DNA from: a virus
DNA: 39,015 nt
Virus record (IMG/VR): IMGVR_UViG_3300034111_001148
Location: 1-39,015 of that record
Reading direction: 5' to 3' (one strand)
A model generated the notes under the pieces. The model was not told the DNA's origin. It was given only the letters and a program-made list of their open reading frames with translations, and ran no database searches. The position numbers were made by a program, and so were the translations under genes. Below are positions 16,820 to 34,279 of this stretch, piece after piece (position 1 is the stretch's first letter; every line of letters begins with the position of its first letter).

Positions 16820-17392
16820 TTAACAATTCCATTTTCTTAAATACTCTTTTGCTTCAGAAGACTCTTTATTATAATATAGTAAATAAATCCGTGCAAACTC
16901 TAATAAAAAAGGATCATCTTTAAAATGACCTAATCCCATATTACAATTATTGCAAAGCATTCCCCTTACTATATTTGTAGTATGACAGTGATCAACTACA
17001 AGGTTTTCTTCAGATCCACATATAATACAACCTTCAGTTTTGATTAATTCTTTTAATTCTTCATCACTAATCATTGATCTATATTGACCTCTTCTTATTT
17101 CACTTCTATAAGAAGCTCTACATGTTTTACACCAACTGTCAAAACCATCTAAGGTTCTTTTATGTGCTGTAAAATATTCATTTGTTCTTGGTTTTTCTAT
17201 GTTACATTTCTTACATGTTTTGTTTTCTGAAAAACCTTTTTCTAATTGTATTTTATTGTTATAATCTTTTGAACAAGTTATAGTACAAAAAACAGTATTA
17301 TTCTTTTTTAATGTTCTTTCAATATCTGATTTACCTCTTATAAAAGAATTATCACAATGTGTACAATTATATTCTATCTTCTTTGATGGCAT
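16820..17392 (-). CDS. Endonuclease VII-type HNH protein (probable homing endonuclease)
   Basis: A 190-residue protein with three Cys-based zinc sites: C10/C13 with C36/C40, C60/C63 with C88/C91, and C122/C125 with C147/C150. The last one frames the catalytic motif VVDHCHTTNIVRGMLCNNC, with D134, H135 and H137 followed by RG and CNxC-NxG, the signature of the recombination endonuclease VII (T4 gp49-like) family. Free-standing versions with extra zinc modules usually act as mobile homing endonucleases. The gene interrupts a set of tiny basic genes, and both it and the gene upstream end in the same KWNC codons because of a flanking 14-bp repeat. It could instead be a Holliday-junction resolvase used in packaging, but repeat and context favour mobility. 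Confidence 0.8.
   Translation of the reverse strand: MPSKKIEYNCTHCDNSFIRGKSDIERTLKKNNTVFCTITCSKDYNNKIQLEKGFSENKTCKKCNIEKPRTNEYFTAHKRTLDGFDSWCKTCRASYRSEIRRGQYRSMISDEELKELIKTEGCIICGSEENLVVDHCHTTNIVRGMLCNNCNMGLGHFKDDPFLLEFARIYLLYYNKESSEAKEYLRKWNC
16822..16835. repeat. 14-bp direct repeat, distal copy flanking the HNH gene
   Basis: The plus strand reads AACAATTCCATTTT, identical to bases 17396-17409. It encodes the last codons (KWNC) and part of the stop of the HNH gene. The two copies lie 574 bases apart and bracket almost exactly the HNH frame. Confidence 0.8.
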
Positions 17393-30633: not shown

Positions 30634-30792
30634 CTATCTATTCTTAATTGTAAAATTTAGTATACTGAGTGAATAAAAATTTCTAGACACGTCTATATCT
30701 ATACTTACTATATCAATGTAAGAAAGTCTAACTCTTATCATGAGTTTATCCCATTGTTTTCTGGAAGTTTTCCAATTATTTCTAAATTTCAT
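30634..30792 (-). CDS. 52-aa small protein at the end of the lysis cassette
   Basis: A short frame starts at ATG 30792-30790, overlapping the TGA of the lytic enzyme upstream by four bases (ATGA), and ends with TAG at 30636-30634. The product begins MKFRNNWKTSRKQWDKLMIR and continues with alternating hydrophobic Ile/Val and Asp/Ser, as in two beta strands, ending NFTIKNR. The overlap and the terminator right after its stop support a genuine gene. It has no membrane span. The function is unknown; a regulator or inhibitor of the enzyme is conceivable because of the tight coupling. Confidence 0.5.
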   Translation of the reverse strand: MKFRNNWKTSRKQWDKLMIRVRLSYIDIVSIDIDVSRNFYSLSILNFTIKNR

Positions 30793-31598
30793 ACAATGTC
30801 GTTTGATTCAATTAATGTATATGTAAAGTTGTTTCCATGTACAGCTTTTGCTCTACGGCAGATTGCCATAAACTCTTCAAAGTCTGCAGATTTTTTAAAT
30901 ACCTGACATCCTTCAGACCAGTTCTCTACAAATGTTGAATCTGCTCCAGCTTTGTGAATGTTAATTCCAAACAATCCTTCTTGTATTGACTTCTCATCAT
31001 ATACCATATCTTTGTTTGGATCACGGAAAACTTTAACTGGTTTGTTTTGTCCTAGTGCTTCATACTTACCTGCATGAAGTCTCATGATGTGAGAGTTGAT
31101 ATACTGACCCTCAACTAATCTAGCTACACCTGCTTTATTTCCGTACTGCATAACACCTTTCGTTCCTGGATCTGTGGTTGCTGGCCAACTATGAAAATGC
31201 TCTACACCATCAACTGTATAAGTTAAAGTCAAATAATCATCAAATAAGTTAGTTACTTTTTGACCTGTAGAAGAGTTACGTACTCCTATAATATTAAGCA
31301 TTAAGTCTTTACCTTCAAACCACTTGTAACCTTTGGATGCTACTGCAGTTTTTACTTGAGCTGCAGTATATTTAGTAGCAACTGCTGGTTTAGAAACTAC
31401 AGGTTTACTATCTACAGTAATACCCATCTTAGCTAATGTAGCAGGTCCTACAACTCCATCTGGAGTAAGACCATGTTTTTTTTGAAACTCAATAACAGCA
31501 GCTTCTGTTTTTGGTCCAAAGTTTCCTATTTGTTCTACACCTAATACTGCCTGAATTTTCTTAACAGTATCATTGTTGTCTCCTTTTTTAAGTACCAT
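30789..31598 (-). CDS. Peptidoglycan-binding YkuD-like L,D-transpeptidase-type enzyme
   Basis: A 269-residue protein without signal peptide. Residues 3-58 are a peptidoglycan-binding domain (VKKIQAVLGVEQIGNFGPKT then VIEFQKKHGLTPDGVVGPAT). A Pro/Ala-rich linker leads into a domain with H215 in FGINIHKAG and S228/C231 in NWSEGCQVF, the spacing and residues of the YkuD H...SxGC catalytic signature. YkuD enzymes cross-link or edit the stem peptide of peptidoglycan; phage versions may act in lysis or cell-wall entry. It is 11 bases from the GH24 endolysin, so it is a second wall-active enzyme. It could also be an inactive binder. Confidence 0.7.
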   Translation of the reverse strand: MVLKKGDNNDTVKKIQAVLGVEQIGNFGPKTEAAVIEFQKKHGLTPDGVVGPATLAKMGITVDSKPVVSKPAVATKYTAAQVKTAVASKGYKWFEGKDLMLNIIGVRNSSTGQKVTNLFDDYLTLTYTVDGVEHFHSWPATTDPGTKGVMQYGNKAGVARLVEGQYINSHIMRLHAGKYEALGQNKPVKVFRDPNKDMVYDEKSIQEGLFGINIHKAGADSTFVENWSEGCQVFKKSADFEEFMAICRRAKAVHGNNFTYTLIESNDIV

Positions 31599-31609
31599 AA
31601 CTATTCTAT

Positions 31610-32068
31610 TTATTTTTTAAAGTATAAGTTTGCTTCTGCCTCTCTTCTTCTCACAAGACCTTTTAATGTTTTACCTCCAGCTTTAACCCATTTCATAAAT
31701 TCTAATCTGATTGATTCGTCTTCTGGATTAGCATTAACCTTTTTCAATAGGGTTGATGACTTTAGATTCCCCGGGCCTAAATTATAAGCAAATGATACTA
31801 GAGCATCGAACTGATTCTGATTGATATCATCACGGCAATATGAATCTACATATTGCTCAAAACTGACAAGCATACTTTGTAATAGTTCCGTACCGCGTGC
31901 TTCAGTGATTGTAGCATCTGCCATTGTTACTTTTTTACCGCCTGGGTAAAATGTTGCTCCATACCCAATGGTTGGAATACCTGCAGGACATTTGTAAGGA
32001 GTTCCTCTAAATCCTTCAAAAGCTTTAATCATATCAATTCCAGCCGTGCCTGTTTTTGTAATTTTCAT
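31610..32068 (-). CDS. GH24 endolysin (lysozyme)
   Basis: A 152-residue muramidase. The catalytic triad of the GH24 family is E18, C27 and T33, with spacing E-x8-C-x5-T; the middle residue is Cys instead of Asp, a variation known in this family. TIGYGATFYPGGKKVTMADATIT and FDALVSFAYNLGPGNLKSSTLLKK match T4/P22-type lysozyme motifs. There is no signal peptide, so it depends on a holin. It lies next to the PAS-holin-like gene (6 bases) and upstream of the YkuD-type enzyme. It should cleave the glycan strands at lysis. Confidence 0.9.
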   Translation of the reverse strand: MKITKTGTAGIDMIKAFEGFRGTPYKCPAGIPTIGYGATFYPGGKKVTMADATITEARGTELLQSMLVSFEQYVDSYCRDDINQNQFDALVSFAYNLGPGNLKSSTLLKKVNANPEDESIRLEFMKWVKAGGKTLKGLVRRREAEANLYFKK

Positions 32069-32074
32069 ATCCTT

Positions 32075-33190
32075 TTATTTTTTTTCTTTACTGCCTTCTT
32101 GCGTAGCATACTTGATACCCATGATTGTGCCGACTATTGAAAAGGCATTTGTTAATAATACACTAAACATATTACTCCATGTTGATCCAATGATTTGAGT
32201 ATCTTGATTTGTTATAATTGCAGCCCAGTATAGTACAGTTGTTATAACCCCTACTCCAACTATAACAGCCAACGCAACTTTGACAATGATTTTAATCAGC
32301 TCACTTTGGCTTTTTTTCATCATTACATCTAAGTCATTCAGAGCTGCATCTTTTTCTATCTCAATTGCATTCTTAAGCTTTTGTGAGTTATCAAGTTCTA
32401 CCTGTAAATTTGTTGTTAAGTCGTCTATTTTCTTCTTATTGTTTACAGCCTCAGTGACATCAGTTGCAATTTTAACTACATCGGTGATGTTTCCTTTACT
32501 GTCCATTACAGGATTATAAGATGCTTGCAAGTAAACAGTAGATCCATCTACTTTTCTTCTTTCAAATATTCCATCAAAGAACTTACCCTTTTTCAGACTT
32601 TCCCAAAACTTAGCATATTCATCAGATTTAGAATACTCGTAGCTAACAAAAACACTGTGGTGTTTACCAATGACTTTACTTTTTTCATTGGTTTTATAAC
32701 CCATAGTTTCTAAGAATATAGAATTAACTTCTGTTATAAAACCCTCAATATTAAAACTAATAAGAGCTGTACTTCTGTTAATGGCATCTATTTGTTTCTT
32801 ACTATTGACAATTGCACTAATGTCAGTAGCAATCTTCATTACTTTGGTGATCTTACCATCCTCATTTAAAATAGGATTATAAGTTGCTTGAAGATTAATA
32901 AGACTTCCATCCTTTCTTCTTCTCTCAAATTCTCCAGTATAATACTTACCACTTCTTAGGATATCCCAAAACTTCTCATATTCAAGTGATCTTGAGTAAT
33001 CATCACATACAAAGATGCTATGATGTTTACCAATGATATCATCATGGTTGCCTTTACCATAACCCATTGCTTCCAAAAAAATGTCATTGACCCCTAGTAT
33101 AATACCAGCAAGGTCAAAGTAGATAATAGCATTACTTCTATTAATGGCTTCTAGTCTACTTAGTAACTCTTCTTTTGGGAGATTTTTCAC
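32075..33190 (-). CDS. Tandem PAS protein with two-helix membrane tail (holin-like)
   Basis: A 371-residue protein. PAS1 is residues about 8-128 and PAS2 about 133-254; both keep NxxFLExMGY, GKHHSxFV, FExRRxxDGS, LQAxYNPxxD and KIATDxxxxV. A charged coiled coil follows (255-295), then hydrophobic segments at 301-326 and 338-359, and a short tail GSKEKK. This is a class II holin pattern (two spans with a charged C-terminus) fused to two sensor domains; such repeated PAS domains with 'GKHH' are known in methyl-accepting and redox-sensing bacterial proteins. Position in a lysis cassette (6 bases from the GH24 endolysin, 10 bases from the K/E/V-rich gene) suggests a ligand-gated trigger of lysis. 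No kinase or methyl-accepting domain is present. Confidence 0.7.
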   Translation of the reverse strand: MKNLPKEELLSRLEAINRSNAIIYFDLAGIILGVNDIFLEAMGYGKGNHDDIIGKHHSIFVCDDYSRSLEYEKFWDILRSGKYYTGEFERRRKDGSLINLQATYNPILNEDGKITKVMKIATDISAIVNSKKQIDAINRSTALISFNIEGFITEVNSIFLETMGYKTNEKSKVIGKHHSVFVSYEYSKSDEYAKFWESLKKGKFFDGIFERRKVDGSTVYLQASYNPVMDSKGNITDVVKIATDVTEAVNNKKKIDDLTTNLQVELDNSQKLKNAIEIEKDAALNDLDVMMKKSQSELIKIIVKVALAVIVGVGVITTVLYWAAIITNQDTQIIGSTWSNMFSVLLTNAFSIVGTIMGIKYATQEGSKEKK

Positions 33191-33199
33191 TGCAAGTTA

Positions 33200-33499
33200 T
33201 TATTTCTTGAACTTTTTAAGCCAAACTTTAGATATCAAATTACCTGCTATTTTCAATAAAGGATTTTGAGCATCAACTGTTACAGTAGTACCTTCTTCAG
33301 TTTTAACTACATTAACATCTAATTTTTCACTATCTAGTTTGAATTCTTTTTTTTCTTCAGTTGCATGAACTTCTACATCAACCTTTGGAGTGTCAATTAC
33401 AACATCAACATTTTTTCCTTCTTTCTTTACTTTAGCAGTGACTTTTTTGGTTTTTACTTCAACCTCAATGTCTTTTACTTTTACTTCTTTCTTAGCCAT
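33200..33499 (-). CDS. 99-aa K/E/V-rich repetitive protein
   Basis: A 99-residue protein of alternating charged and beta-branched residues: KEVKVKDIEVEVKTKKVTAKV, then DVVIDTPKVDVEV and EKLDVNVVKTEEG. It looks like one long amphipathic beta strand array or a solenoid. The C-terminus changes to a hydrophobic-basic part (LLKIAGNLISKVWLKKFKK), which could touch a membrane. It sits between the PAS-membrane protein and a small membrane protein. No family known; a lysis-associated or membrane-bound role is inferred from neighbours. Confidence 0.55.
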   Translation of the reverse strand: MAKKEVKVKDIEVEVKTKKVTAKVKKEGKNVDVVIDTPKVDVEVHATEEKKEFKLDSEKLDVNVVKTEEGTTVTVDAQNPLLKIAGNLISKVWLKKFKK

Positions 33500-33510
33500 T
33501 TTTATTTAAT

Positions 33511-33750
33511 TTAGGGATTTACAATTTCTTCTTCTTTCTTGTCTTCAACAGTTAACTGTGAAGTTGCTACAATAGTAGCACTTACTGTTGCTAAATAAGT
33601 TGCAGTAGTAATTACTGCAGCTGGTAATGTTACTGGTGCAGCAATAATAATTCCTGCTACAGTTCCTGTAATAATAGCCCATCTTTGGACTCTTTTCCAA
33701 AACTCAGGTGTTTTAGCCTTCCATCTTTCTTTAAGGGTTTTCTCTTTCAT
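33511..33750 (-). CDS. 79-aa small membrane protein (holin/lysis candidate)
   Basis: A 79-residue protein with a positively charged N-terminus (KTPEFWKRVQRW), a long hydrophobic stretch (about residues 25-66, AIITGTVAGIIIAAPVTLPAAV and TATYLATVSATIVAT) enough for one long or two short spans, and an acidic tail (VEDKKEEEIVNP). It overlaps the holin gene by 20 bases. This is a typical small lysis-region membrane protein, either a second holin, an antiholin or a spanin-like factor. I favour holin/antiholin because the hydrophobic part is long and polar ends are short. Confidence 0.6.
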   Translation of the reverse strand: MKEKTLKERWKAKTPEFWKRVQRWAIITGTVAGIIIAAPVTLPAAVITTATYLATVSATIVATSQLTVEDKKEEEIVNP

Positions 33751-34279
33751 CTTTGATTGATTTTATTGGTTCATCTTTTACATACTGAGCTAGATATCTT
33801 AGTAGAGGATTATATTCTGTCCAACCCAGTCTTTTAAAATTTTCTAAATTTGATAAGAAAAGATTTATAATTATATAGTTATAGAATCCATAATGCAGCC
33901 ATTCATAGATATTAAAGGTAACTCCAAACACTGGTTTAATCGGAATATTTTCAGCTAATGCATGTGATACACCAATCATTAACATATATACAAACAATTT
34001 AAACCATCCTTTACCGAAAAGTTCTGAATCAAATTTTAAACCTTCTTTTCTGGAAGCTTTAAGACCTGTATAAAACTCTAATATAAAAAGTAAAAGAATA
34101 CCTATACCAACAGGCAATACAATACCAAAAACAGAATTAAAATAATAAGCAATTCCTGCAAAAAAAGCACTTATAATTGTTATAGTGCTGGAAGCTTCTG
34201 GATGAAATGCACTGTTTATAAAATGTGTTGTATCACTGTATCCTGCAGCAAAAACTAATTTGTTAAGTATTGTTTTCAT
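33731..34279 (-). CDS. Phage holin (toxin-secretion/phage-lysis type)
   Basis: A 182-residue protein with about four hydrophobic segments: 32-50 (STITIISAFFAGIAYYF), 55-72 (LPVGIGILLLFILEF), 95-108 (LFVYMLMIGVSHAL) and 125-140 (YGFYNYIIINLFL). The motif EFYTGLKASRKEG after the second span matches the phage_holin_4 / toxin-secretion holin family as I recall it. The C-terminus is charged and soluble (LGWTEYNPLLRYL). It is the first gene of the lysis cassette. It should make the membrane lesion that releases the endolysin, unless it acts mainly as an antiholin to the other membrane proteins. Confidence 0.7.
   Translation of the reverse strand: MKTILNKLVFAAGYSDTTHFINSAFHPEASSTITIISAFFAGIAYYFNSVFGIVLPVGIGILLLFILEFYTGLKASRKEGLKFDSELFGKGWFKLFVYMLMIGVSHALAENIPIKPVFGVTFNIYEWLHYGFYNYIIINLFLSNLENFKRLGWTEYNPLLRYLAQYVKDEPIKSIKDERENP

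Follow-up and report, generated by a model that had tools for sequence, protein, structure and literature searches.

What does a phage protein do that joins two PAS domains through a coiled coil to two membrane spans and is encoded right beside an endolysin? Is it the holin itself, a regulator of a separate holin, or a signaling protein with no part in lysis? The question is raised by a 39,015-base viral record (the whole stretch of DNA that was analyzed, here called the window), part of the genome of a distant crAss-like phage. The TerL of the window has about 25% identity to those of crAss-like and Flavobacterium phages, and window proteins match PHROG terminase and virion families; an Endonuclease VII/HNH-like gene (16820-17392) is inserted among the small virion genes. 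An initial annotation had read the protein as a holin with a sensor input.

A sensor-bearing membrane protein in a phage lysis cassette

The genes of the cassette follow one another on the minus strand in the order given here, and the parts of the protein in question, termed PAS-tail, stand directly below its gene.

33731..34279, minus strand: holin candidate of 182 aa, Phage_holin_4_1, distinct from the PAS-tail (PF05105, E = 1.7e-8, exceeding the gathering score)
33511..33750, minus strand: 79-aa membrane protein, co-occurs with the PF05105 holin (hydropathy and neighborhood comparison)
33200..33499, minus strand: 99-aa lysine-rich protein, co-occurs with the PF05105 holin (no predicted spans)
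32075..33190, minus strand: PAS-tail, a PAS-PAS-coiled coil-2TM protein of 371 aa (start codon GTG at 33190, stop codon at 32075)
32819..33133, minus strand: PAS1, residues 20-124 (Pfam, AlphaFold2, PDB sequence matches to MmoS, NifL and Aer)
32444..32767, minus strand: PAS2, residues 142-249 (Pfam, AlphaFold2)
32300..32443, minus strand: signaling helix/coiled coil, residues 250-297, running unbroken into TM1 (AlphaFold2)
32225..32299, minus strand: TM1, residues 298-322 (hydropathy, charges)
32102..32200, minus strand: TM2 with flanks, residues 331-363, the shared output tail (identical in 35 of 35 aligned sequences)
31610..32068, minus strand: GH24 endolysin of 152 aa, directly downstream of the PAS-tail (PF00959, E = 7e-44)
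30789..31598, minus strand: PG_binding_1 protein, second putative cell-wall enzyme (C-terminal domain phrog_3000, function unassigned)

The phrog_3000 domain of the last protein recurs in lysis cassettes, and the protein is possibly an undescribed cell-wall enzyme.

Pfam assigned PAS_3 to two stretches of the PAS-tail (E = 2.8e-25) and also PAS_9 (E = 2.9e-20), and the AlphaFold2 model (mean pLDDT 76) consists of two PAS domains, a helix from residue 246 to 327, and a second helix from residue 331 to 367. The protein belongs to the PAS family in fold and in sequence, as found by Pfam, PDB sequence comparison, AlphaFold2, and Foldseek, and the PAS structures of MmoS, DosP, NifL, and FixL were near the top of the Foldseek search against the PDB. 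Hydropathy places the spans at residues 298-316 and 341-359, with TM2 being weakly amphipathic. Since the loop between the spans is free of K and R and the C terminus is basic, the topology is predicted to be N-in/C-in. A kinase, cyclase, or MCP output domain was not found in the protein by Pfam. The initial annotation had described the two PAS domains, the coiled coil, the two spans, and the basic tail as well as the lack of a kinase, cyclase, or chemotaxis output, and in all of this it was right. Its two motifs fared differently: GKHHSxFV is present in both PAS domains (GKHHSIFV in PAS1, GKHHSVFV in PAS2), whereas FExRR is exact in PAS1 (FERRR) but not in PAS2 (FERRK). Likewise, the GH24 gene is indeed adjacent, but the supposed membrane gene on the other side is not: the immediate upstream neighbor (33200-33499) has no predicted span, and the two genes that follow encode the membrane proteins.

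Is the PAS-tail the holin of this cassette? Like class II holins and pinholins, it has two spans, a short charged tail, and, by prediction, both ends inside; it adjoins the endolysin, and there are a few loci in which no other holin was recognized. However, it is far longer than these holins, carries a cytosolic sensor and a coiled coil, and is accompanied by a separate holin, the PF05105 protein of the window. Furthermore, neither the entire protein nor its C-terminal part gave a match to holin families in Pfam or PHROGs, and no known channel was matched by the tail either. Indeed, neither a Pfam family nor a convincing PHROG family was found for it; phrog_1544 was considered and rejected, as its matches were weak and none was to the kinase-linked tails described below. 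With most of the similar cassettes doing without a PAS-tail, a holin gated by its own PAS domains is very improbable, and the cassette probably has its holin elsewhere, or at least not in the PAS-tail alone. What stands from the initial annotation is a sensor-bearing membrane protein in a lysis cassette, with a probably cytosolic input; the label "holin", as given there, is not supported.

Conservation and neighborhood of the PAS-tail

Two scans of IMG/VR gave 244 to 269 stretches as candidate relatives of the PAS-tail, both the patterns used as seeds (MGIKYATQ and TWSNMFGI) and scanning by pattern as such favoring sequences that have the tail motif. The best 80 relatives per scan have 80 to 100% identity over nearly the full length and lie on contigs of 4 kb to 272 kb; the fetched relatives retain every domain, and 82 distinct IMG/VR genes have the PAS-tail architecture. 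Residues 331 to 363 are invariant in all 35 aligned sequences, while the fourfold sites of this stretch are 50% identical. Compared to the window gene, dN is 0.016 to 0.099 and dS is 0.22 to 1.70. Silent sites have diverged and dN is well below dS, and therefore, constraint acts on the protein and is strongest on TM2. A DNA element as the cause of the invariant tail was ruled out because the silent sites within this stretch vary; an artifact, a chance match, or a decayed sensor gene was ruled out by the relatives, the retained domains, and a dN far below dS. By this measure of sequence evolution, the PAS-tail is a conserved and selected architecture and no wreck. Its host phages are widely different: PAS proteins of more than 80% identity have TerL nearby from 53% identity upwards. 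All known relatives are metagenomic, and none was found in the cultured-phage collection. A fecal "phage" sequence (MT836939) was rejected as a cultured relative, as it is a bacterial-type MCP.

How close is the tie to lysis? A hydrolase of the GH24, M15, GH19, or PG_binding_1 type lies within five genes of 76 of the 82 distinct PAS-tail genes and within two genes of 73 of them, and among the listed matches of a DNA pattern scan for the tail, one is near 28 of 29 PAS-tails that came up in this way alone. The PAS-tail gene is single-copy in 11 long records; nine of these have a GH24, M15, or GH19 gene, no family being represented twice, and in seven of the nine, all whole records, the distance from such a gene to the PAS-tail is at most about 1.1 kb. 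L128 is an exception, with a PAS-tail but no lysis gene nearby. The same fusion is hence found at the same locus in relatives, and the link to lysis drawn in the initial annotation holds in unrelated phages. Viewed from the neighboring genes, relatives of the GH24 endolysin of the window have a PAS-tail gene in 36 of 80 loci and a kinase-receiver-tail system (see below) in 5 more, and relatives of its PF05105 holin have a PAS-tail gene in 11 of 69 loci, a few of the 69 contigs ending too early to tell. The PAS-tail gene behaves as an accessory of the lysis cassette.

According to gene calls, PF05105, PF23987, or a small 2-TM protein (C1) is near the PAS-tail in 34 of the 45 loci with full context, and C1 was also found by tblastn in several of the remaining ones; homology of the tail to C1 itself was rejected, a profile comparison giving no match. 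A separate holin candidate near most PAS-tail loci and the accessory nature of the PAS gene are both in line with a sensor-controlled antiholin, whose hairpin would restrain the holin of the cassette in the membrane until the sensor changes its state, in the way that RI acts on T in phage T4. Lysis inhibition by the antiholin RI and the holin T, also described for phage ICP1, is a case of phage-encoded sensing that alters lysis time (PMC8385771, PMC7182436). RI binds the holin from the periplasm with its periplasmic domain; here a PAS domain, a GAF domain, or a kinase-receiver relay is linked to a hairpin of predicted N-in/C-in topology, and the sensor of the PAS-tail is cytosolic by predicted topology. 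The tail is accompanied by different holin families or, at some loci, by none that was recognized. One would not expect a near-invariant TM2 beside varied holins if it were a dedicated binding partner; this rather fits an effector that needs no particular partner. An antiholin is therefore unlikely.

Several other proteins of these cassettes deserve mention. In L006, L012, and L244, two probable spanins are encoded upstream of the PAS-tail or the endolysin: a u-spanin-like protein (C18) that has a lipobox and a C-terminal span, and a TM-coiled-coil protein (C8). In L041, L050, and L059, the PAS-tail gene adjoins a gene for a 200-aa protein with an N-terminal span, a possible GAF-like part, the motif QFHNGGH...PTG, and weak matches to PHROGs of unassigned function. 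Three uncharacterized proteins of cultured Cellulophaga phages, phi18:3 gp090 (L170), phi46:3 gp086 (L169), and phi19:1 gp108 (L171), are encoded one to a few genes before an endolysin; Foldseek matched those of phi18:3 and phi19:1 weakly to PAS-like folds (E = 3e-3 and 1e-4, respectively), and phi18:3 gp090 and phi46:3 gp086 have an N-terminal span.

Kinase-receiver systems and other inputs to the same tail

Tails without PAS domains were first met in loci seeded with GH24. In L281, L305, L308, and L242, genes for a PAS histidine kinase (540 to 604 aa), a receiver (143 to 145 aa), and a tail protein (189 to 191 aa) follow one another within the lysis cassette, and Pfam identified PAS, HATPase_c, and Response_reg in these operons, with the L242 receiver slightly under the cut-off. 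A scan with a kinase-linked tail protein gave 248 relatives, and the order kinase, receiver, tail was found in all 51 kinase-linked tail loci that have at least 3.5 kb of upstream sequence; near-copies are common among the contigs, 81 kinase-linked loci amounting to 58 distinct tails. An independent DNA scan with GSTWSNMF returned at least 120 stretches. Among the matches listed, there are four kinds of tail protein (two-PAS, one-PAS, GAF [L486], and kinase-linked), and kinase and receiver precede the kinase-linked tail in 21 of 21 cases with context. Full operons are present in L281 (930-3559), L242 (5942-8758), L328, and L330 (a 430-kb record). Two consecutive kinase genes followed by one receiver and a tail were seen in L326 (2572-5573), and in L343 and L348, kinase-receiver-tail operons lie near T4-like baseplate genes, away from recognized lysis genes. 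Of the 14 kinase-linked records searched, 5 have a terminase, two of them being 294 and 430 kb long, and the terminases on several of these contigs support their phage identity.

The signaling residues are intact: RHD, the N box, DNGRG, and GTGLGL of the kinase as well as D9, D10, D61, S92, and K114 of the receiver are essentially invariant. With these H, N, and G boxes and the receiver D, D, D, S, and K, the system resembles canonical two-component systems; it differs from them in being phage encoded, in its stand-alone receiver, and in a linked third gene that encodes a membrane hairpin. The sensor part of the operons varies (FAD-type PAS, BdlA-type PAS, GAF, or membrane), whereas the kinase core and the receiver are conserved. 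Neither the kinase nor the receiver of the tail system was found in any PAS-tail locus. For the kinase-linked tail, the AlphaFold2 model (mean pLDDT 83) has a small N-terminal helical part, one unbroken helix from residue 37 to 150, and TM2 from residue 154 to 188; as modeled, it is built on the same structural plan as the PAS-tail, and the shared 2-TM tail motif TQIIGSTWSNMF..LLTNAFSI.GTIMG.KYA is present in the window protein. L486 encodes a GAF-coiled coil-tail fusion of 341 aa, which is apparently an independent one-piece version. The tail is thus an undescribed phage membrane output domain that is driven by a phosphorelay or by directly fused sensors. The initial annotation was probably correct on the sensor input of the window protein but missed this larger system, in which a histidine kinase and a receiver, both phage encoded, drive the same tail elsewhere.

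Where did the sensors come from? Among the proteins compared, the soluble PAS-PAS kinase of L328 is closest to the PAS pair of the window (49% identity, E = 6e-82), with residues 1-249 aligning collinearly to residues 1-250. The GAF domain of the L486 GAF-tail has 59% identity to the GAF domain of the L386 phage kinase. In a tree of the tails, the PAS-tails (including L485, whose gene is split into two frames) form one clade (98/86) nested in the kinase-linked tails, with single-PAS forms basal, and the GAF-tail falls within another kinase-linked group (97/80). Their position in separate kinase-linked groups suggests that PAS-tail and GAF-tail arose by two separate sensor fusions, the direction of fusion being provisional since the tree, built on few columns, is rooted by midpoint. 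A homolog with an output domain, which the initial annotation had named as an argument against its reading, does exist in the sense that the closest PAS pair belongs to a phage kinase, but the PAS-tail is no decayed copy of it. BdlA/McpS-type PAS-PAS chemoreceptors and bacterial PAS kinases are also similar to the phage PAS pair (42 to 46% identity); their output is an MCP or kinase domain at the end of the protein, whereas the phage proteins end in a membrane hairpin. The PAS-PAS order is shared by BdlA and McpS of Pseudomonas aeruginosa, for which FAD was predicted from the sequence (PMC8694187). For PAS1 of the L281 kinase, the nearest sequence is MmoS (E = 6e-28), followed by Aer and NifL, and the window protein matches the same PAS chains in the PDB sequence comparison. 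MmoS, Aer, and NifL are flavoproteins, and by analogy, redox or oxygen is a candidate signal for the phage sensors.

The resemblance of the PAS pair to chemoreceptor and kinase sensors of the host could also speak for a signaling membrane protein outside lysis, which interferes with PAS or two-component signaling of the host or serves superinfection exclusion and merely rides in the late/lysis region. Consistent with this, kinase-linked tails are sometimes found away from lysis genes: among the listed GSTWSNMF matches, a recognized hydrolase is near just 16 of the 30 kinase-linked tails with context. This number counts against the explanation that we prefer, as do the operons near baseplate genes (L343, L348), the PAS-tail of L128, the weak amphipathicity of TM2, the lack of a match of the tail to any channel or holin, and the absence of the PAS-tail gene from many near-identical cassettes. 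However, the PAS-tails adjoin hydrolases of four families across phage lineages and genome sizes, and where whole records were compared, the two genes are usually close neighbors. We therefore regard a role outside lysis as improbable.

The tail was absent from 50,697 phage records, and a pattern-seeded scan, within its sensitivity, found no PAS-tail form in 84,980 GTDB species genomes. In 396 genomes from the phylum of a Winogradskyella match, there was one weak match to the tail (E = 3.8e-4, 27% identity, in a 599-aa frame); this single bacterial match was judged to be a chance match of coiled coils, and a bacterial or prophage origin of the tail was rejected. In a viral structure library, the kinase-linked tail had a single real match, to an uncharacterized protein of an uncultured phage. 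The control of lysis time by the environment has been worked out mainly for lysis inhibition of the T4 type (PMC7182436). The lysis literature that we searched describes inhibition by superinfection; a lysis cassette that takes its input from a phage two-component system or from PAS/GAF domains is not among its subjects, and nothing was found in the open-access literature on a phage PAS holin, a crAss-like PAS protein, or a two-component system in phage lysis. Hence, the phage kinase-receiver-membrane hairpin system appears to be undescribed in the sources searched, even if its output should be other than lysis.

A proposed model of signal-gated lysis timing

The best explanation of the data, to which we give an even chance, is that the PAS-tail belongs to a family of phage membrane effectors that are gated by a signal and is the one-piece form among them. 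The receiver is devoid of a Pfam DNA-binding domain and is followed by a coiled-coil hairpin, which points to a protein-protein rather than a transcriptional output; sensors fused directly to the same hairpin point in the same direction. Most likely, the tail gates a membrane event that sets the timing of lysis.

In the mechanism that we infer, from the ligand and the direction of the signal to the ion leak and its effect on lysis, the starting point is the cytosolic PAS pair, which is joined via the coiled coil to a two-helix membrane hairpin with a near-invariant second helix. In other phages, the hairpin is carried on a small N-terminal domain that presumably answers to the phosphorylated receiver; the PAS-tail would probably derive from a kinase-type sensor that was fused straight onto the tail, so that the phosphorelay is bypassed. 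The sensor may read the state of the host, for example, redox or oxygen, and the coiled coil would carry the signal down to the hairpin, which might open or close a small membrane lesion or ion leak. In phage lambda, holins are known to trigger early when the membrane loses its energy. De-energization of the membrane by the hairpin could then trigger the ordinary holin of the cassette earlier or later. We favor such a self-acting hairpin, which would trip any holin present, because TM2 is near-invariant while the neighboring holins differ or are absent.

In sum, we describe a phage two-component system with a membrane output, together with a one-gene version of it, that is widespread in uncultured aquatic phages and in which different sensors have been swapped onto one near-invariant hairpin. 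That dedicated phage signal transduction, by a kinase-receiver relay or by fused PAS or GAF domains, converges on a common new membrane output domain and lets the state of the host or the environment set the time of lysis is a proposal whose chances we judge to be evenly balanced. If it is true, there would be a defined gene set for how a phage decides on the moment of lysis, and the hairpin would be a new kind of output domain for signals that might also be put to use in ligand-controlled lysis.
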